DNA of 64,000 bases, from contig NW_026252137.1 in assembly GCF_025399195.1 (NCBI RefSeq), positions 114,876-178,875 of the forward strand, written 5' to 3'. The notes under the pieces were generated by a model, which saw only the letters and a list, made by a program, of their open reading frames with translations, made no database searches and had not been told where the DNA came from. Every line of letters starts with the position of its first letter. Positions within the stretch are counted from its first letter, which is position 1. Below are positions 28,313-62,500 of the stretch, piece by piece. Made by a program: the position numbers and the translations under genes. Source of the DNA: Umbelopsis ramanniana AG (taxonomy: Eukaryota; Mucoromycota; Umbelopsidomycetes; Umbelopsidales; Umbelopsidaceae).

Positions 28313-31300
28313 CTACATAGTGTCATTGGTAGTGGCATCATGTGTCAAGTGAATGGAGTCTTCTTCAAGCTCACTGTCGGCTAGATCGCTGTCGGTCAAG
28401 AGATCTCGGTCATGTAGCTCGGATGGAGTAGTGGCGGGAACGGGAGATGTCATGCTGGAGGGGGTGCGTACCACGCCGTCGCTAGCTCCTCCTTCCAACG
28501 ATGAATATGGGAAGATATCGATATCTGAGAGCCTTCGGTTACCTCCAGGTTGAGAAGACTGGAAAGGAGTCTGCGCCAGCGCAAGCTATACATACACCAA
28601 GGATTCATTATCATCACAGTCAAGTTTCTTTCTATTTTCTCCACCGGTACATACCTGTTCGAGTTCATACGATAAGGCGGCTTGAAGTTGGGGTAGCTCA
28701 TACAGACATCGATGAATGATGTCTGGTAGAGCTTGAGGACTGTGAGAGGTGATAACGTTGGCGCTTCCAAATGGATTCTCCATGAGAACTTTGTCATCGG
28801 GATCATGCATTCGTTGGCGCAGATCTTTTATCATGTACTCGTATTCATCAATCCGTTCCAGAGCTTCTTCAATATCATCATCTTGTTTATCCAAAAAGTT
28901 AGTGACCGGTCCTGGAGATATTCGGACATCATAATACACATAGATTTGATCGTCAAAGTCCACATAGAATAGACAGGGCACATTTTGTCCCGGTACAATG
29001 GCGTACGACCCTACAAAAATGGGGCATCAATACCAAAGATCTGCAGACATGGCGAACCCCACCCACGACTCACCTGCTGTGAAAGCACATACTCTGCCTT
29101 CAAAGGCAAATTTAACCAGTTGAAACTTGGTAGCGGCATTTTGGCTACTATCCGTAGGGGTAGAACTTCGCTGGCTCCAGTCGATCATGTAGGTGACACC
29201 ATTCCAAGCACAAGCGACAAAGAGATCATTCTCAACTTCGACCTTCTGTTCGCTTAGCCAAGAGTCTTCTAGGCCGTTATATTCACTTCCTCGTCTCGAG
29301 CCATTATGCTCAGAGTCACTGAAATCTTCCAACTCATCGTCTCCGTCAGCGGCACTGGCTTCGCCGTCAGGTGGATTGCCGCTCACTATTCCTAAAATTT
29401 TTGAGATAGTTGATCCCATAGTAACTGTAACATCATCTAGACTAGGTACGTGCCGAAGAGAATGGTCGTCCTCATTATCACTATCTCCGTTTTCCGACAC
29501 ACTAACTGATGTGGTGGCAACGGGTGAAGGCGCCGAAGACAAGTCATTGATGGACGCTGTGGCAGAAGAGTTGTATCTTGCCGCTCTCATATAAGGCGAG
29601 GGGAATCTAAGCTGTGGCGATGATGCGTGCGAGGAAAAGGCTGGGGTACTGACGCCACTTCTGAAACGGCCGTGAGTGGCATGAGAAGACGAGTGGTTAC
29701 CAAGTCTCAGAGGGTTGCTATGAGGGTTGAGGGTAGCCAAACTGAACAGCTTGTGCGTGACAAACAGGTCGTATTCAGAACTTTCTTTCGATAACAGATT
29801 GTAAACCGTGAACTTTCCTACAATCCGAACGGAAGATCGTGGTCAGCACGAATGGGAAAAAGATTTTCAATATCTAGTTGGGCGGTGGAAATCAGTGGTA
29901 CTCACCGTCCATACTGAGCATGCCAACAACATCAGCTTGCACATCATCAACAATCTCGCTATCAATATCGTCCAGGGACCGTCGTCGATGCCGCCGTTTT
30001 CCCATGACAATTTCTGTCGCAACCAAGCCTTTGATTTCATCACCTACAACAGCATCGCCGTCAACTACTGGCCAGCTTTGAACGACATAGCTCGAACTTT
30101 TGATCTCTACAGGAGGTGTTGAAATGGAAGAAGACGGCTTGGATTTATCCAGAACGTCAGGTCCGATGGCGTGCGTACTGGAAGCTCGTCGTAACAAAGG
30201 GCGAATAGTGCCACTCGTTAGGCGACGTGTCTTGGCCATGGGTGGTTCATCCGTCATAAACTGTGTTGCCTTTGGTGTGACTGATAAGCCGTACATCTCT
30301 TCACTACAATCGTCGCCGTCGATCAATTTGGTCAAACTCTTTTCAATATCAACAGGTGATCGGTCAAAGGAGTGGTTTGGCGGACGTTGTGAGATCTCAG
30401 GGCTATCAAACTGATAGGTGGAGATGTCACCAACTGGGTCATTAGATCGTCGGTAATGGCTGTTGCTAACATAATGCCGTGTGAAATCAGGATTATAGCG
30501 ATCGCCTTTTTGGTCAATGATAGTAAAGGTATTTCCAGGTTGAGCAACTAGTAGCAAAGGCTCATTTGGATAGTTTGGGTGCACAGTGGTGGACAAAGAT
30601 GTAATCTACAGAGTGAAAAAAAGGTTACCAGGTAGCTCGATAAACAGGCATTCTCTTGTTCAAATCATCATGTCAACTTACCTGGCCATCAAATATCCAC
30701 ATGTCTTTCTCAATAATAGTGGTTGTGGTTGTGGGCTTGACATTATTCTCGTCATTGCTTTCAACATCGTCTTTCGGCTTGACTTTATTCTTGTCCCTTT
30801 TCCCCCACCCGGTGCTGATTTTTGATATGGCACTCAAATCCTTCGCATCCTCCTTGGTTAACGTCCGTGACGGTGGTAGAGGGCGCTCTTTTGCCAAGCT
30901 CAAAGTGCTTTGAGTAATATTAGAGAGAGATGACTTCATTGATTTTCCGGCTAATGGATTGGGACGGGTATACAGATTAGGTGTAGTGGAGGTAGATGAA
31001 GTAGAGGTCGAAGTGGATTGAGGTCCAGCAGTCGTATTAGATTTGGAGATGTCGTCCAAATTTGTTTTCTTAAGTTCAAAAGAATGCAAAATTCGATCGG
31101 TTCGAGCCAAAACGACTTCGTTCCTTCCGTCACCATCGATATCTGCAATAATAATTTTGTTCACGTTGACTGGAACTTTCACCGTGTGAATTGGTGCTAT
31201 ATGCTCCATGACCATTTCTTGATCGTCTTTGCCAAGCTGACTCTTTGCACGGCTGGTTTTTTGACCATTTTGAGCATTGGCCATAGCATTTCGAAAACTA

Positions 31301-31909
31301 TGCAAAGTAGCCGTGTCTGAACCTCGGCGACTATGTTGTAAATACTCTTCAACGGTCATAAGGTTGTTGGCCTGCACCGAAGATGACCGCCTGGTCGCGT
31401 CAATGTTATCCAGATCAAATATATGGGCTTGGCCTTCAGCATTGATACACACGACCGAGTTCTGGTAGTAGGCATCAGAAGATGCATTAGAATTGATATA
31501 CGGTCGATAGCCGCTTTCACTTTCGAGCTTACCTTGCCGCTATTTCGAGCATCCCCAATGGCAAGACAAGTGATCTATTCAGCGCAAAAGTTAGTACGAG
31601 GCAATATGACAGGATAGAGGCAATAATGCAAGCTCACCGTGCCAAGACCTCGGCAAAAGTAAGTTGGCAGGCCATTGGGACAATCGCCTTTAAATATAGC
31701 GAGATCTCCGTTGAGATTGCCAATAACAAATTCATTGTCCTGCGCGGAGGAAAGGTAAAGCGTTATTAGACTTGAAGAAAGCGGAAGTTCAGTGGCAAAC
31801 ACGAAAGTCTTACCCCGTCATTATCTGCATCACCAACAACGAGGGCATGAGGGTTCATATTTCCACCGAACGACCATCGCAGGCGATTGACAAGCGATAC
31901 GGTCCTCAT
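28313..31909 (-). CDS. ITFG2: ITFG2-like FG-GAP beta-propeller protein (KICSTOR subunit family), expanded
   Basis: Eight exons: 31909-31814, 31739-31638, 31574-31533, 31461-30682, 30605-29906, 29817-29074, 29010-28655 and 28585-28313; 1030 residues. The N-terminus follows animal ITFG2 closely: MRTVSLVNRLRWSF, then GDADNDGDNEFVIGNLNGDL, CLAIGDARNSGK, INAEGQAHIFDLD. A calcium-loop FG-GAP motif IADIDGDGRNEVVLARTDRI follows near residue 178. Later blades include LLLVAQPGNTF and VPCLFYVDFDDQIYVYYDV. Long Ser/Thr/Asp-rich insertions between blades more than double the length relative to human ITFG2 (about 450 residues). In animals ITFG2 is part of KICSTOR, which holds GATOR1 on lysosomes for amino-acid control of TORC1. 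That role here is inferred from homology. Confidence 0.88.
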
Positions 31910-32374: not shown

Positions 32375-35300
32375 CTATTTCTCAAGGCTGGGAGATCCTG
32401 TTTCAGCGACTAGTTTCTGGCAGCGTAAGCCTTCCAAGAGTTGCCGTAGTACTTGGAAATCAATTGGCTTGCTCACGTAGCCTTTCATTCCCTTACTAAG
32501 ACAGATTTCACGATCACCACTCATAGCTTGAGCGGTAACGGCAATGATAGGTGCAGCAATAACAGCGGCTCCAAATGTATGCCTTTGGTATTCTAAAATT
32601 TGTCGTGTGGCTTCAAATCCATCGCATATAGGCATTTGTAAATCCATTAAGATGACATCGAACGAATCCTTTTGTAACGTCGACTTTGTAGTATTGGCAC
32701 GGACATAGATATCGATGGCTTCTTGACCGTTGTCGGCGACTTCATAAACGTATTTAAGTTTCTGCATCATTCGACATATTAATGCTTGATTAAGCTTGTT
32801 GTCTTCCACACAGAGTACTCGAAATGGTCTATGAGCGCCTTCATATTGAGCTAGAATGCTCTCAATTTCAGAAACGTTCATCACAGGATAGGGAGAGATA
32901 GCCTCTGTTGGTGAGGAGAAATTCGCTATTAGTTCGTCTTTGGTATGAGCTGGAAGAGTTTGAGCGAGCGGAATCGGGATGGTAGGCACTAGCTGTGGGC
33001 GTACGTTCTTCGTATCCGAGCCATTGGTTGGCGCCACGGTGCTGTCAGGGTGCTGATCCACAGGTTCCAACGGTAGCTCCAAGTAAAACTCACTGCCGAT
33101 CTCTGGCTTAGATACTAGGCCAACCTTACCGCCCATGAGATGAGCCAAAGTGTGACTGACAGCCAATCCTAAACCTAAACAAACGCTTGTTAGAAGAAGT
33201 CCTGTGCAAAACCAGATATAGAAACGATGCCTTACCAATTCCGCCGTTGTTTCGGCTGAGCGAATCGTCGCCTTGCACAAATTTTTCAAAAATAAGTTGC
33301 TGTCTGTCAATGGGTATACCAATACCTATCAATGACATTAGATGTTAGCAATGGATGACATATTTCAACAAGAAAGAAAAATGCGTTCTACTTACCAGTA
33401 TCGGTGACGCCAACTTTAACAGAGATATTTCCATCCTCATGGACCTCAATCAGGGATACATTGACAGAGACTTCACCTTTGGACGTGTACTTGCACGCAT
33501 TACTTACAAAGTTTCTCAAGATTTGTTTGATCTTTATAACATCGCCGATAGCCCATTTTGGAAGGCTAGGATCAAATTTGACGAAGAAACCAAGGTTTTT
33601 TTCCTTGAAGCGTGGAGCATACGATTGAGTAACATCGCTGATAGCATCCTCAAGGTTGAACGAAGCCTTTTCAAGGTGAACCTCGCCGCGTTCAAGTTTG
33701 GAAAAATCCAATAGATCATTGATAATAGTAGTAAGAGTCTTAGTAGCCTGGTTGGCTTCTTGAAGCATTTGCGATTGTTCACTCGAGAGGTCTGTGTCGA
33801 GCAAGAGATTAATGACACCAGAAATACCGTGTAAAGGAGTTCGTACTAAAAATTCATTGTCAGTAAGTATGAAGTCACGACTTTGGGCCATATGTCGGAA
33901 TTTCATCCTTACCTTCGTGGGATACGTTTGCAAGCAGCAAACTCTTCTTTTTATCGCTTTCTTCGGCAAGACGCTTAGCTTGCTCCAATTGAGAGTTTCT
34001 ATAACGGGCCTCACGACCATCAATGCGAAGCATGCGATTCTTCCATGTCTTGAGCGATTCTTGGAACACAGACAAGGTGGTCAACAATAGCTCGGGATTG
34101 ACGTGTGTGCTCCAGCTGGAGGATGTGCCTTCGATAGTTTCAGTCCATTTTTGAAAACTAGTTCTGGGCATGAGGACGTCATTCTGGCGTCCATTATAGG
34201 CTTGAATGGTCATTGTGTCTCCCGACTTCATTGGTTCGCCCTGAGATAGTGAAAAAATTAGTGAGACTGTCACTAGGCAAATGCCAAGTAAACGCCAACT
34301 GTAAAAGTGTACTGTACTAACCGCCCACGTAACGTTCATAATTTGTTCTTGTCTACATATGACGGCGAAGTCGATGCCATCATCACTTAGTGGAAAGTAA
34401 ATGGCACCACTGAGAGCTCTAGTGCTTTCCATGCCTTGAAAATCTTTGGCAATGCAGCTGCTGACAACGGTCTTCTTAAGTCGAACGGATTGAAGGTATT
34501 GTACAAATCGTGTCAATGCATCCGGATCGGGAATAAGGGCTGGATTGGGAACAACAATAGATCGACCCTGAATCATAAAGAGCATATAGTCTGCACCGAA
34601 AAGTTTGCATACTGTGGGACCAGCCACTCGAACAAATCGCTCGTACATTCTAGCCCAATCTTCTGTACTTCTTCGGTCGTGATCAGGTCTTCGGCGAAAT
34701 TTGCCGGATCTTTGTGAAGTAACGGACGAGCTACGGGATGTCTGTCTCTTGACTGCATTGACATCGATATGCAAGTTTTCAAGTCGTTCAGCGACGGATT
34801 TGTCAAAATAGTCGCGCTCATCGCATGAGGAACAGTATTCATCTTCTGGTGAGTCCACACTAGTATCAGCTGGAGAGTCATTCACCTTCGTCGCTGTTGG
34901 CTCTGGCGGTGCTTTTTGTGAAGCATTACGTGAGCCAGTCCAATACTGTTCAGCAAGCTGTCGCACTTGATGCGTTTGATCAAAACGTTCCTTGTTGATC
35001 ATATTTTCGAGATGTGTAGATATCAACGTACTGAGATAAGAGCATGCCGTTCTCGCCTGGAAAGTGACGGGCAATGCGAACATATGGTGACTTTTTTTTT
35101 TCCGAGTGGGAGGGAATAGAGGTAATTAGTGACAAAGGAAAGGTAGAGTAGATTTAGTTCAGGTCAATGGATACTTTACCAGCATATCAAACCCCAAAGT
35201 CGGCCATAAACAGTAACAGCTAAAGACATGGACGAATTTACACCCATATGCTTTAGATAAATTAAGTGAACTGGACTCATAGCTCTTAAATGACAGAAAG

Positions 35301-36692
35301 TCAAGTCCAATGGGCGTGTGGCTTTAGATCGGCTGGCCGAACCTTTACCATTGGCTTGCAATAAGGAGCTGGTAAGAGCACCTCGATCGCAGAGATATCT
35401 AGATTTGTTAAGCAAATAGAGGTCTCTAAGATAGGAGTAAAAATAATAATGATTAAAACAACGGGTTGGTGGCGTTTAAATGTGTGAATAGCGTCTATGG
35501 CTTACCTTGCTTGCTTGGGGATATCAGTGTGTGGAAAGTGAATGCCCATATACGATTCAGCATCGCTATCCATGGCCAGGGTTTCAGCTATAGTAGAAAG
35601 GTTAGACTCTTGAACCATTTGGATGCAGCAAGCAGACACTTATCGCACATACCCACTACAACGCCATTCCAATCTTCATCGAATTGGTACATCATGACTC
35701 TTTCATAAGAAGTGACATGTTGAACGTAGCGTACAGCCAAGCTGCATAGATCTTGGATATTCTTTGCGGTCTCAAAAGTGTGTACCAGGGTATTCAATCC
35801 AAAGAAAAACTTGTCATAGGCCACTTCAGCAAGTCGATTGTAGACTTCTAATTCCAATATGAGTAGATTGGGATTTCTTTGCGATTTGTGCATGGAGCAA
35901 TAGAATTGTCGTTTGTGAGGGTTGATAGACTGCTCTGCGTCTGAATCATCATCATCGTCAGACAAGTCGTTCCACAAACCATTTAGATAGTCGTCTTGGC
36001 CGGTGGTCTGGCCAGACGGCGTCGACGACGCTGTCGAAAACGACGCTCTAGACTCCGTTTTTTCAGAATAGTAACCAATATCACTGTCATGAGAGGCGGG
36101 AGAAGCAGCCTCCACGCTTTGTCGATGATCTTGTAAAATGTCGGCGAACCGTTTTGATCGATAAAAGATAGAGGTATCGAGTTCCAGTACGAAACTGGAG
36201 GGTCCAACCTTGGAGGCATCTGTCATGGAAAGCAACAGTGTGAGTATGAAACTGTTGGCTATGGATGGGGTGTCTTGTTGGTCATTTACCTCGCAACGCA
36301 TCTATATGTTTATAAAATCTATCACGTTGATAATCTGAAAGCAACTTTTTGAAACTTTTCAATTCGAAGAGGTGATTAGGCTGTATATGGGGTAAACCAA
36401 TCAAATCTGGGGTATTATCAGAGAGATATTCTATCTTCAAATTCGATAGCGATAGGGCGATCAGTGCTCCATGATGCTGGATTGCGCCAGGGATATGAAT
36501 GGGTTCTGAAAAAAAAAAAGCGATATTTTTTATTAGCGGATTATTTAAGATTGCCATGTTAAAAAAGAAGGCAATTTTTTTTTTAGAGCGGTTATTTCCC
36601 ATACCTTGATCACAAGGGACAAAGTTGCCTTCATGTTTGACATGGAGAACGTCCTCTCTCATGGAAATCAAATTTTCAGAGTCTGGCTCCAT
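32375..36692 (-). CDS. Phytochrome hybrid histidine kinase (PAS-GAF-PHY-HisKA-HATPase-receiver)
   Basis: Ten exons: 36692-36605, 36505-36290, 36219-35653, 35587-35506, 35425-35180, 35090-34322, 34240-33913, 33845-33396, 33325-33236 and 33174-32375; 1211 residues, every phase closing. Photosensory core: a cysteine at residue 27 just before EPIHIPGAIQHHG, the biliverdin-attachment position of bacterial and fungal phytochromes; a GAF domain with HFPHTDIPKQARDLYLLNK (the conserved Asp-Ile-Pro) and SPVHLIYLKHMGV; a PHY tongue with WAGEP and MPRTSF. Output: the H-box SHEVRTPLHG (His764), the N-box NACKYT, DTGIGIP and GLGLAVS ATP motifs, then a receiver with VEDNKLNQ and phospho-acceptor Asp1123 in ILMDLQMP. 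It should be a red/far-red sensor feeding a phosphorelay (HPt, then response regulators). Ser/Asp-rich insertions lie in the PAS-GAF linker and the PHY domain. Confidence 0.96.
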
Positions 36693-55428: not shown

Positions 55429-58400
55429 TTAATGAGCTTGCAAGGATTGCTGGGTGACAAGTTCCTTGTACACACCGTTCTTCTCAAGCAATTCCCAGTG
55501 GGTACCTTGCTCGACAATTTGACCGTTGCTAACGACGCAAATCAAATCGGCATTCTAAAAGGAGTGTAAAAGCAGGATGAGCGACATGGATCAAAATAAA
55601 CAAAAAAAAATGTACCAATTTGGTGACATCGCGTTATGCAACGTATTCTTACCTGGATAGTGGAAAGTCTGTGGGCAATGGTGATAGTAGTACGACCACC
55701 TTCAATAATAGCCTTATCGATAGCTTCTTGTACAAGCTTTTCAGATTCACTGTCAAGAGCAGAAGTAGCTTCATCCAACAACAAGAGTTTGGGCTTGCGA
55801 ATAAGAGCACGGGCAATAGCAATACGTTGCTTTTGACCACCAGAAAGTTGAGAGCCCTTATCACCAACACGAGTGTTGTAGCCTTCGGGAAGAGACGTAA
55901 TGAACTTGTGGATATTGGCACCTTCAGCAGCTTCTTGGACCATTTCATCAGTAACAGTTTGACTATCTTGAATACCATAACGGATATTTTCACCAATAGT
56001 CATATCGAACAGAACGGGTTCTTGACCAACAAGAGCTTGATGAGCACGAAGATTGGAGACAGCGTAGCTAGTGACAGATCGGTCGTCGAGTTTGACGTTT
56101 CCTTCAGCAGCATCGTACCAACGTTGAAGCATACCAATGGTAGTGGATTTACCACATCCAGAGGGACCGACGAGGGCAATGGTTTGACCACGCTTGCCCT
56201 TGAGGTTGAATTCTCCACTGAAGATAGGGATATCGGGTCTAGCAGGGTATCTGAAAGCAACATTTTCAAAAGCAATGTCGCCGCGGACGTTGGCAGTATC
56301 AATTTCGAAACCTTCTTGATCAGGGTCGATCTTGGAGACACGATCGATGATTTCAAAAGTGCTGAGAGCAGAGAGCTTGGCCTTGGCAAAGGTAGAGGTG
56401 AAGACAGAGCCACGGCCCATACCTTGGGCAGTCAACATGACAGCCATCATGACAGTGAACATGTCGGTGAAAGAGATCTTTCCCTCAGACATAAGACGGA
56501 TACCGGCGTAGAAAGCAACAGCGTTGGTGAAGAGCATCATACTCTGTTGACCAGCGTAACCCAAAGAAGCCATATAAGCCTTGCGGACAGCGAGTTTGTG
56601 AGGATGTTCGGTAGCGAGATCAAATTTGCCTTCAAAGTGGTTTTGCTTGTTAAGAGCAGCGACAGTGCGGATTTCCTTGATAGCTTCACCAGCAACTTCA
56701 CCAGATTGTTCGTAGGCCTTCTTGGTCTTGCTTTCAAAACCACGATGGATACGAGATTCGTAAGAGGCGGCACCAAGAATGAAGGGAGCCATGGTGAGAA
56801 TGATGAAGGTCAAAAGCCAGCCATAGACGAAAGCGATGGTCAAACCAGTGATAGCGGTAACAATAACTTGGGTAACATCACCCCAGACCTTGGTGACCAT
56901 TTCGTTGACATTGGCGGCATCGACAGCAAGACGAGAAGTAAGTGCACCCATGCTGTGTTCATCTTCGTCATAGAAACCAACTTCTTGTTTGAGAAGAGAA
57001 CGGAAGAGCATACCACGGAAACGCTTGGTGAATCGTTCACCAGCAACTTCGAAAGCGGCGACTTGAAGGAAGAAAGAGAACAAGGCGGCAATACCAATGA
57101 CAACAAAGAGGAAGGCATACAAATTAGCACCTTCAAGAGGACCAGGAGCAATAGCGCCTAGATCGCCGGCGTTGTTGGTGAGAATCATAATGACTTGAGA
57201 GAACACGAGAGCATAAATGGGGAAGATGGTACCGGCAACGGCAGCACTGTAAAAAGAGAATAAAAGAAATGAGTGATCATGCTATTTTTGAAAACTAGAC
57301 AAATGGTTTAAATGTACATACCCGCAAACACCAGCAGCCATAAGAGGCCATTCGGGTCTCATAAGTTTAAGAACCTTCATGATAGGAGCATTCTGCTTCT
57401 TGAGCAACTTCTTTTCTTCCTTAGCCTTAAGCAACTTCATTTGATAACCATCGAGATTTTCAGTGCTGTCAGCCATTTTGATGTGAGTTTCAGCGATCTT
57501 TTCATTCTGATCAGTTACAGCAGTAGCAACGTTGACAGTTTCTTCCTGGAGAGCCTTTTCCAATTCACGGTCGTCAAGTTCAAACTCATCAGACTTGTCA
57601 TCACCCTTTTCAGTGTTGATCTGTTGCTTGAGAACGAGTTCGCTGTAGACACCACCGAGCTTGAGAAGCTCGTCGTGAGTACCTTGTTCAATGAGATCAC
57701 CTTGTTGCATAACAACAATGAGATCGGCGTTGCGAATAGTAGAAAGACGATGGGCAATAACAATAGTAGTTCGGTCCTTTGAAGCAGCATCAAGAGCCTT
57801 TTGTACAAGACGTTCAGATTGGGTATCCAAAGCAGAGGTAGCTTCATCCAAGAGCAAGATAGCAGGGTTCTTCAAAAGAGCACGAGCTATGGCAATACGT
57901 TGCTTCTGACCACCAGAAAGCATACCACCGTGTTCACCGACGAGAGTGTCCAAACCTTGAGGGAGTTGAGTAATGAAATTGTAGCAGTTAGCCTTCTTAC
58001 AAGCTTCGATGACTTCATCTTCAGTGACTTCATGAGAAGCACCCATCAACAAGTTTTGCTTGATAGTCATATTGAAAAGAACGGGTTCTTGGCTGACAAC
58101 ACCAATGTTGGAACGAAGCCAGCGCAAGTTGAGTTCACGAAGATCGTGACCATCGAGGGTGACACTTCCAGAGAGGGGATCGTAGAAACGTTGCAAAAGT
58201 TGAACACTGGTAGATTTTCCAGAACCGGAAGGACCAACAAAAGCGACAGTCATACCAGGCTTAACTTCCAAAGATAAATTTTTGAGAATAGTGACATCAG
58301 GGCGGGTGGGGTATTTGAACTGGACGTTCTTGAATTCAATGTTACCAATAACCTTGGCAGGCTTGATACCACCTTCATCATCAGGATCAATAGTAGGAAC

Positions 58401-59540
58401 GCGGTCGATGGTCTGGAAGATCTTGTAGGCAGCACCACGAGCACTAGAGACAGCAGCCAAGTTGGGAGGAACTTGAACAAGTGACATAGCACCAATAATC
58501 ATGGAAATGAAGACAACCAGAACATTGGAACCAGTCATCTTGCTTTGCATAACAAGTTGAGAACCATACCAGAAAGCGAGACCATAAGTAGCGAAGAGGA
58601 TGAACATGAAGGAACCGAAACCGGCACCGATGACAAGACCGCGCTTCTTGCCGACAACATAAGCACGTTCCAATTGAATATCGTAACGATCGGCAAAACG
58701 TTTGGCGAGAGTGAAGGAGAAGACGGTACGGATACCAGAAAATGCTTGTTCGGCAACGGAACCAGCATCGGCATAGGCATTTTGAGCCATGATACTGTAC
58801 TTGCTAATGTATTTGCCCATAAGACCAGCGCAGAGACCCATAAGAGGAAGAGTGGCCAAGATGACAACAGCGAGATTCCAGCCTTTGACAAAGGCAATGA
58901 CGATACCAGTAATGAATTGAGCAAGACCTTGAACGAAAAGACCGAATTTTTCACTAATACCGTCCTGGATCATGTTGGTGTCAGAAGCCAAACGAGTAGT
59001 AAGAGAGCCTTCATCAGCCATATCGAACCATCCCATGTCTTGACGAAGAATGGAATGAACATAACGTTGACGGATACGGCGGGTTTGGCTTTCACCTGTC
59101 ATAACCCAGATACATTGACAGACATAGGCACCGACAAGGGCACCAATACCCATATAGACGAATGTCATAATAACGGGATGCATAAAGTCGACCATTTCGC
59201 TCGGTGACATGGTAAGAGCGACAGTCATGTTGTTCAAGAATTGACCAAGAATAATGATAGAAATAGGTTGAAGAGCACCAACACCGGCTGAAAAGATCGT
59301 AGCGATGACAATCAAGACTTTCTCAAATGGTGTGGCGAAACGGAAGAGTGTAAGGAAGGAAACGGCGGGTTCCTTTTCCTTCTTTTCCTTCTTGTCCTTT
59401 TTGTCCTTCTTGGACTTTTTGTCTTTTTTGTCGTTTGTTACTCCTGACATAGGAATTGTTTCTTGATCTTTTTCGTTAAGATGAACGGAGACGGTTTTAG
59501 TGGTCGCCACCGATGCCGTCCGTGAAATACTGGAGGCCAT
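55429..59540 (-). CDS. Full-length ABCB (P-glycoprotein/MDR) transporter
   Basis: Three exons: 59540-57322, 57246-55653 and 55554-55429; 1312 residues. The layout is TMD1-NBD1-linker-TMD2-NBD2, as in animal MDR1 and yeast Ste6. NBD1 has Walker [10 protein letters not shown], signature [15 protein letters not shown] and Walker [16 protein letters not shown]2 has [24 protein letters not shown] and [12 protein letters not shown]. Both halves keep the H-loop (IAHRLST), so both ATP sites look competent. It exports hydrophobic compounds or lipids/peptides; which one is not predictable. The N-terminus carries an unusual Lys-rich repeat of the type [10 protein letters not shown] (about residues 37-57). 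Codon bias is strong, suggesting high expression. Long open frames on the opposite strand are shadows of this bias. Confidence 0.97.
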
Positions 59541-62500
59541 GTTAACGATTTATGTAATTAGAATATAGAAAGGATGTGTAAAATAAAAGATGGTGGAATA
59601 TACAAGAATCGGAAGATGTCAGACGCAAAGAAAGCCAGGTCTTTATATAATTATGGACATGCCAGTCTGACTCGTTGATCGCCCGGCGCACAAATGCGCA
59701 ACAAATGCGTGGTTTCAAATCTGGTCTTCGAATCTTTTCCAGCGAACGTCGGTGTCTTATACATCCGAGCCAATCAAAATCCTCACATAGTAATTCGGCA
59801 TTCTGACCGGGACAAGATCAGGTTCGATTGAGTCAAATCACTCGAACAAACGCGTAAGGGCTCATACCGTGTGATACACTATAATGGCCCACGAATACCT
59901 CTATATCATTCATTACGGCACACCTTGGAAATATTTGTGTGGTACTCTTAAGGTACGCCATAGCGATAAGGAGGAATTGTTACCTCTCTGATCTGCTTAT
60001 CACGTTCCTAAACAACCCAGTTATCTTGGTCAAGCCTTAGAAAATGGGTCATTTTATTTTTTAATCATCATCATATCAGTATATTCCCATCATACTACGC
60101 CGTTTTTAAAAATCAATGCATCAAGAGACCATGTTGTGTCTGCGGTAACGGAAGCGTGGATGCTTGATCTGCCTATTCCTCAGAGCAAGGGAAAGCTATC
60201 CGGATAACCAGCCAATCAAAAGGGCAGGAATTTCGGGATATCTTTAAGGCTTTGATTCAATGAAAGAGGGGTCGGAGAAAGCATATATTTAGTTATCGAG
60301 AAATGCTCCACAAAAGAAATTGCATGTGGCAGCAACCAGTCAAATTCGGCTTTCATTGTTATGGCTACCTCACAAACTCAACGCATCCAATGGTCTTATC
60401 TGACCATCCCTTTCACCTTCTTTGCTTCCCGTGCGTTGCAGAGAGTACAGGACTCCTCACGAACCGCAGTGAGCAAAGCATGGAGCATCTGAAACCTGAT
60501 TTTCTAAAATTCGAAAGGACTTTAAACTTTATAGTGCGCTCACGCCCAGCGACGATACTTATTTCCGCGAGCTCTTGGCTTCAAATATGGCAATTGCACA
60601 ATCTTTTCTGGACGGCCCATATATCTTGCCGTCAGAGATCATAAAGAAAGACGGCACTTAAACCCGATCGTTCACTCGGTCCATGTAACCGGTAGCCCAT
60701 GTACGTCTATTACTTGATCATATTGCTCATGTAATCTTAATTCTGTCGGTATCCTTGTGCGTGTGCTTACCCTGTATTACTTTGCCATGCTTTATCTTAC
60801 CAAGCTTTGGAAGATACACTAGCTTGATAGTGATGTATAACGTGGTAATGCGTGTTGCAGGTGTGACAATAGGGGTTACCATCGGAAAGCTACGCCAGAT
60901 CCAAGGAAAAGATCATGACGCGGCAAGGTCATCGGTTCAGCTTAGCTATCCAAATTGACATGTGCCGCTGCTTTTCCTTTGGTTGAAACCATTCATTGTG
61001 AATTTGATTGCTCCATTGTTTTTCGCATGACGAAGATTCTGCTTCCAAGTGTCAGACTTAACTCTGTTTCACCCCAACTATAGAAAATTTCTGGTTTTAT
61101 TTTGCTGACAGAAATCTATTGAATTCAGCCGGCCGTTTCGAGCGTGCCAACTTACGCTCAATCAGCCAGTTTGATGCTTGCTGACGTACATAGTCGTCAG
61201 GTTCGCAACAATTTTCTCAATCCACGTAAGCAAACTGAAAACGTGGAAAGTCAAACCGGTACCAAAGATGCATGTGTGGACCCTTTTGCTGAGATCTTCA
61301 TGCCTCTTCGAAAGTGGCCTACTTATTGATTAAGATCAAAATGCTTAACAAACAACGCTGTTAGCCCTTTCTTTTTTTGGAGAGATAAAAAAAAAACTCT
61401 CCCAATAAGGTTTTCGAATGCTACGAATGCTAACCAGCAAGTGTTGGTTCCTGTCTCATAATGGGGTTATCCACAAGCTTGGCTTTATTGCATAATTTAC
61501 AAGTGATAATGGTTGCTTTAAAAATACTGGATCGATCAATGTTTTCGCATAAGCACGGCTCCAAAAGTAGGTCATACGCTATGCTAAATGTACGTGTACC
61601 AAACCCCGTCTCAACATATTTCTTGATAGCAGGGTTTTCGCCTCTTTAGTGAATGGCAACCTATGCTTTGCATATAACTTTAATTCTAACATAGAATAAA
61701 GGCTATTTTGCAATAAAAAGCAAACAATCGACCAGCATGTGCAATGCCCATTACGTGACATACATGCAGCAATTCTAACCGTACCATCTTCATTAGATGT
61801 TATGGAACGCTGACATGCTGTCTGTGTTGGAAACCATTGTGTTTCTTGTAATAATCGGAAAACCACAGTAAATATGTGGACCTCGAGTGATGCGTATGTT
61901 AAGGTACTATTTTAAGGTACAAATCAGATCCAGCGGTGTTAAGGTTATTGAAACTGCGGTTGACTCTGGTAGTTTTTGTGAACGAAGTAAGTGTGAAACT
62001 GATTCGCACCCATTGATAGTAGAAACAAAGGGCGGCCATAGTTCATTGAAAAGGTACCCGACGATGAGTAGAATTACAACTTTATTGTTAATGATACCCT
62101 GTTCAATTTAAGGCAGTAACATTTGTCATGAAGTATCACCTCATTGATGACAAGTTACACCAAGTGGTATGGCAACCATTCCACAAATTGCTAAGCAGTA
62201 AGAAGGCACTTGCAGTTATGTATCTTTGATTTGGTATTGTTTGAGCTTATGTACTTACTACATGTAGACTTTTTAGTATGCGTAAAAAAAGCTTCACAGA
62301 ACTTTCATTTTCTTGTGAAAAGATCACCTCACCAAGATATATTCCTTATAAAACATTCGTCTGAAGGACGCAAACACTGCCAAAATGTTCCAGCTTCATT
62401 AATTAATCTAAGGCAAGTTTCAATATTTATGAAACTACGGGTAATAAAGAATACCGCTTACTCTTGATGGTCAGCCGCCTAAGCTATATCGCCTCAGAAC

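Follow-up and report, generated by a model that had tools for sequence, protein, structure and literature searches.

The window is a 64,000-nucleotide stretch of the Umbelopsis ramanniana AG genome (contig NW_026252137.1, positions 114,876 to 178,875). We focused on the minus strand from position 36692 to 32375. This region contains an intact gene for a phytochrome hybrid histidine kinase, with 10 exons encoding 1211 residues and a stop codon. The nine introns are GT-AG, measure 61-99 nt each (682 nt in total) and, once removed, leave the ten exons as a single open frame. This reading of the window agrees exactly with the coordinates, strand, start, stop and chromophore-position cysteine (Cys27) of the original prediction, an earlier annotation made from the sequence alone. 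That annotation had allowed for a mucoralean host. We take U. ramanniana to belong to the Umbelopsidales and not to be a Mucorales model. In Table 1 of PMC5285503, strain AG is given as a Mucoromycotina species. On this point the earlier annotation is not quite right.

All exons are on the minus strand. Exon 1 (36605..36692) comprises the ATG start, a 26-residue N-terminal segment and then Cys27 (codon 36614-36612). Exon 2 (36290..36505) encodes the EPIHIPG motif and the first half of the PAS domain. The remaining PAS, an acidic and serine-rich insert of ~75 residues (about 36133-35909) and the GAF start are in exon 3 (35653..36219). In the predicted model of the Umbelopsis-type orthologue P0002, most of the stretch matching this acidic insert has a predicted local distance difference test (pLDDT) score below 50. 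Exons 4 (35506..35587) and 5 (35180..35425) continue the GAF domain; the former includes GIHFPHTDIPKQAR, with the DIP motif, and the latter the conserved His371. The GAF end, a low-complexity insert of ~90 residues (about 34936-34670) and the first two thirds of PHY are encoded by exon 6 (34322..35090). The PHY tongue (PRTSF), a linker helix and the H-box with His764 (codon 33919-33917) follow in exon 7 (33913..34240). Exon 8 (33396..33845) supplies the rest of HisKA and the first part of HATPase_c, including N-box Asn881, and HATPase_c continues in exon 9 (33236..33325). The DTGIGIP box straddles the exon 8/9 join, and the G2 box (GIGLGL) the exon 9/10 join. Exon 10 (32375..33174) encodes the receiver, with phospho-acceptor Asp1123 (codon 32644-32642), and the stop ends at 32375. 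The exon joins sit in blocks conserved across Umbelopsis orthologues. When the query is compared with one of these (P0002), all nine junctions are within blocks aligned gap-free; gaps at junctions 1 and 9 stem from distant rows.

Six Pfam domains score above their curated cut-offs: PAS_2 (residues 27-90), GAF (256-407), PHY (556-702), HisKA (755-819), HATPase_c (866-982) and Response_reg, the receiver (1065-1192). Cys27 is upstream of the PAS, inside PCDQEPIHIPG. The Cys, DIP (D312-I313-P314), Tyr279, His371, PRxSF (P681-R682-x-S684-F685) and the H-box His764 are identical in all 13 rows of an alignment. Asn881 and Asp1123 are the same in 12 of these rows, the fragment P0121 being gapped there, and positions 383, 385 and 402 vary. 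The PAS-side Cys is present in 72 of the 74 rows of a wider alignment. With residues 1-765 as query, the best solved-structure match by sequence has E = 4e-60. Hence, chance resemblance is not an issue. The domains and conserved residues bear out the earlier description of an intact phytochrome hybrid kinase with all landmarks. By sequence, the protein is classed as a PAS-side Cys phytochrome (BphP/Fph) on the basis of the Cys with PIHIPG, PAS_2-GAF-PHY, DIP and PRxSF. Its HisKA, HATPase_c and receiver residues, together with tree position, assign it to the fungal group VIII (Fph) hybrid kinases.

Profile searches were run on the host's own genome, an assembly whose 123 contigs total 22,837,565 bases. 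One PAS_2 gene and one PHY gene were found, and the two PHY matches are both parts of the window gene. Ten PAS_3 matches were also recorded. It is very probable that the window gene encodes a photoreceptor of the phytochrome class (group VIII/Fph), the only one found in U. ramanniana AG.

Sequence identity indicates that the gene is already deposited, as K450DRAFT_252734 (P0001; U. ramanniana AG, 1187 aa, UniRef name Phytochrome; 98% identity, query coverage 100%). The deposited protein is 24 residues shorter than the window model: its GAF-PHY linker is incomplete and its G2 box (GIGLGL) is missing the GL. Both losses are caused by differing intron calls. Four Umbelopsis-type orthologues (P0002-P0005) retain the linker stretch and the GL, so the 1211-residue model is probably better than the deposited one. 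Two of these orthologues, P0002 and P0003, derive from contigs of no more than 3768 and 4033 nt, respectively, holding frames of 1199 and 1244 aa. The sources are probably transcript contigs, because such short contigs hold full frames, whereas the nine introns of the window gene total 682 nt.

The N-terminus is short and bacteriophytochrome-like, as originally predicted, with 26 residues ahead of Cys27 and no long extension. Conceivably, the true protein has such an extension, encoded by an unrecognised upstream exon, since 118 of the 129 other motif-bearing proteins listed have more than 100 residues ahead of the Cys. P0003 and P0005 (U. isabellina) are also predicted to start 14 residues earlier than the query. 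However, there is an in-frame stop codon three codons 5' of the ATG. P0002 and P0004 share the start Met of the query, and Basidiobolus has only 28 residues before the Cys. Furthermore, inspection by eye of three frames in the ~1 kb upstream of the ATG identified no matching peptide or LSGEP-like exon. Given the upstream stop, the N-terminal comparison and the junction alignment, we rejected a missed exon, which is very unlikely. Sequence comparison thus leaves the ATG at 36692 well supported as the true start, if not proved.

We next consider how widely the short form is shared. In P0001 (the window's own gene), P0002, P0003, P0004 and P0005, the Cys is preceded by 26, 26, 40, 26 and 40 residues, respectively; Basidiobolus has 28, and the three chytrid rows have 48, 86 and 53. 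Among the 129 other listed proteins the median is 236 (range 3-350). This set, left unsorted and including metagenome rows without names, is the 130 others minus P0077, which has no motif; the bacterial-like P0010, P0016 and P0019 were set aside. Of 42 bacterial open reading frames, 27 contain the strict motif, and an upstream Met is present in 23 of these. When counting starts at the first Met following the previous stop codon, the median stretch ahead of the Cys in these 23 is 17 residues. Hence, the contrast previously drawn between long FphA N-termini and bacterial ones of about 20 residues holds as a trend (medians 236 and 17), but the short form is not unique to the window gene. We regard the long extension as a Dikarya trend rather than a defining feature of group VIII (Fph), because 11 of the 129 proteins also carry no more than 100 residues before the Cys. 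By these sequence comparisons, the short N-terminus is genuine yet not confined to the window gene, and marks a small zygomycete clade (Umbelopsis, Basidiobolus) of bacterial-like length.

The main tree was built from 504 PAS-GAF-PHY columns in 74 rows, all of them fungal or bacterial, with algae, oomycetes, diatoms and plants outside its scope. The bacterial rows, 42 from the best 80 of 591 loci, were chosen mostly for reaching the PAS Cys and for taxon spread. They were collected by similarity and hence are biased. From the 142 listed proteins, 31 were included, hand-picked mostly for named taxa. A branch supported at 100/99 separates the 29 fungal rows from all other rows. Among the fungal rows, the five Umbelopsis-type rows group with Basidiobolus (100/99), Dikarya form a group (100/100) and so do chytrids with zygomycetes (91/90). 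The bootstrap correlation was 0.956, not settled, and long branches or unusual composition affect several of the bacterial rows. In a reduced quick tree, with ten long-branch rows removed, the Shimodaira-Hasegawa-like approximate likelihood ratio test (SH-aLRT) gave 100 for fungal unity and 99 for the Umbelopsis-Basidiobolus pair. The chytrid and zygomycete grouping was lost and is given no weight here; the reduced tree does not fix the order in which chytrids, zygomycetes and Dikarya branch.

These trees bear on a second explanation for the short N-terminus and the CDQEPIHIPGAIQ motif, namely recent acquisition from a bacterium. Both features do resemble bacteriophytochromes (BphPs): the N-terminal length is similar to that of the 23 bacterial frames, and bacterial BphPs read CDREPIHIPGAIQ at the motif. 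Conversely, the window gene has nine introns, its closest relatives are the Umbelopsis-type proteins and Basidiobolus, and both trees keep the fungal rows together. A recent bacterial origin was rejected on the last ground and is extremely improbable. Instead, the sequences indicate that the window gene is a fungal phytochrome inherited with the other fungal phytochromes. Consistent with the early-diverging fungal lineage proposed originally, its place is with Basidiobolus. The fungal rows of the protein listings are interspersed with four proteins bearing plant names (P0069, P0101, P0118 and P0136; Adiantum, Carpinus, Quercus), which may reflect fungal contamination of plant assemblies.

Most simply, the short N-terminus is ancestral and the long extension was gained in Dikarya. 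Among the names in two lists of 120 best-matching proteins, many of them without a taxon name, none is from Mucorales, Mortierella or Glomeromycotina. Such an absence fits loss in those groups but is no proof of it. We somewhat favour a history in which Umbelopsis and Basidiobolus keep the old bacterial-length form, the extension is a Dikarya invention, and red-light sensing within Mucoromycota persists in Umbelopsis, having been lost from Mucorales, Mortierellomycotina and Glomeromycotina.

Potential partners are encoded in the same genome. There is one heme oxygenase match (64.5 bits, cut-off 23; locus L003, contig C61). The matched stretch contains one TAG, taken as intronic, and the last exon, read by eye, has a C-terminal hydrophobic stretch followed by KRVQKA. 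Two Cys-Pro dipeptides (CPAF and CPYA, also by eye) are near the N-terminus of this protein. One HPt match was found (32.1 bits against a cut-off of 24.6), with HFLKGSS visible by eye on the reverse strand of L004. The genome thus encodes both a source of biliverdin and a partner for phosphorelay, in keeping with an FphA-like mechanism. Briefly, FphA is described in passages of PMC10219052 and PMC4965123 as undergoing autophosphorylation, with transfer to the receiver, and as acting on the high-osmolarity glycerol (HOG) pathway.

From gene structure, domains, conserved residues, descent and partner presence, all computed directly, we infer each step of chemistry and signalling. Biliverdin made by the host heme oxygenase would bind covalently at Cys27. 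Red or far-red light would then isomerise the chromophore, the PHY tongue (PRTSF) would refold and the helical linker would alter His764 kinase activity. Phosphate could pass from the His764 kinase to Asp1123 of the C-terminal receiver, and then to the one HPt protein found. By analogy with Aspergillus FphA, onward signalling toward a stress mitogen-activated protein kinase (MAPK) pathway of the HOG type is rather more plausible than otherwise. An alternative is that the protein, while a phytochrome in sequence, has a mainly light-independent role (e.g. in temperature sensing) or is a non-photoconverting apo-kinase. A passage in a review does state that kinase-to-receiver transfer in FphA needs no chromophore. 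However, Cys27, DIP, Tyr279, His371 and PRxSF are all conserved, even though positions 383, 385 and 402 vary, and the heme oxygenase is present. We consider the alternative unlikely and favour the light-regulated kinase.

Several observations weigh against our interpretation of the gene and its history. Some concern the protein itself. Across the 74-row alignment, 6 rows have another residue in place of the H-box His and 2 lack the Cys, although the window gene is not among them. With the full-length protein, the best Foldseek match has a template modelling (TM) score of 0.33, by query length. Over the first 35 residues, almost every position of the predicted model has a pLDDT under 50 and, hence, N-terminal threading cannot be judged from it. 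The presence of partners adds little, because fungal heme oxygenase and HPt proteins have other roles. The remaining points concern N-terminal length. The 14 extra residues of P0003 and P0005 mean that it is not fixed within Umbelopsis; the ancestral short form rests on outgroups with heterogeneous start calls; and 11 of the 129 likewise carry no more than 100 residues ahead of the Cys.

Elsewhere in the window, three further features were recorded on the minus strand. Adjoining the phytochrome gene, 30673-31539 is an exon of an Itfg2-family FG-GAP protein (E 3.5e-13), which we take to be of the KICSTOR type. Two adjacent open frames at 55542-59549, each with ABC_membrane and ABC_tran, are probably one full-size ABC transporter. 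The frame at 17253-18407 matches the bVLRF1 release-factor family (E 4.6e-43), has ankyrin repeats and is perhaps a Vms1/ANKZF1-type protein. We also searched the host genome, exon by exon, for the CHASE domain and found nothing at E <= 0.001. Passages of PMC5285503 report a cytokinin-receptor homologue for U. ramanniana and term CHASE highly degenerate. Since the domain is degenerate and the search was exon by exon, this null result carries no conclusion.

A 2015 analysis (section 14 of PMC4422448) placed phytochromes only in Ascomycetes and Basidiomycetes, with loss drawn for all other fungi. The window gene, its Basidiobolus relative and the chytrid phytochromes contradict that section. A 2017 survey of the histidine kinases of early-diverging fungi (PMC5285503), whose genome set contained U. 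ramanniana AG, reports the VIII/Fph group in these fungi, and phytochromes of these fungi are reported again in passages of a 2022 paper (PMC9616733). Together with the deposited Umbelopsis and Basidiobolus orthologues, these reports largely pre-empt the novelty claimed for the lineage. Hence, the gene is of a known kind, in databases and, at group level, in print, and most novelty is gone. Within the literature searched, which left subscription sources largely outside, neither a description of the short N-terminus nor any red-light biology of Umbelopsis was found. The remaining additions are modest: an improved gene model and the small zygomycete clade with its short, bacterial-like N-terminus. 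The window gene, Basidiobolus and chytrid sequences split the long branch to Dikarya, and so are useful for rooting fungal phytochromes. In addition, a naturally short form offers a way to probe the function of the Dikarya extension.

Close relatives match the window gene in domain set and in having a short N-terminus: Umbelopsis sp. WA50703 (P0004) at 68% identity, Umbelopsis isabellina INT43_006846 (P0005), with its earlier start, at 67% and Basidiobolus meristosporus K493DRAFT_305838 (P0006) at 46%. In the Basidiobolus model the GAF insert is longer, and ~14 residues (DLYLLNKSRYLCDR in the query) are missing right after DIPKQAR, probably an annotation slip. As in Umbelopsis, nearly all listed rows for the Dikarya group VIII proteins (FphA, PHY-1 and PHY-2) have PAS_2, GAF, PHY, HisKA, HATPase_c and a receiver. 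However, the Dikarya rows mostly carry a long N-terminal extension and mostly read CEDEPIHIPG, where Umbelopsis has CDQEPIHIPG. The missing extension is the main difference between the window gene and the well-studied fungal phytochromes. Bacteriophytochromes (Stigmatella BphP 6bao/6bap, DrBphP and Agp1) share with the Umbelopsis protein the photosensory fold, a PAS-side Cys close to the N-terminus and the pocket motifs. Introns, two low-complexity inserts, a fused receiver and a position within the fungal clade set the Umbelopsis gene apart from them.
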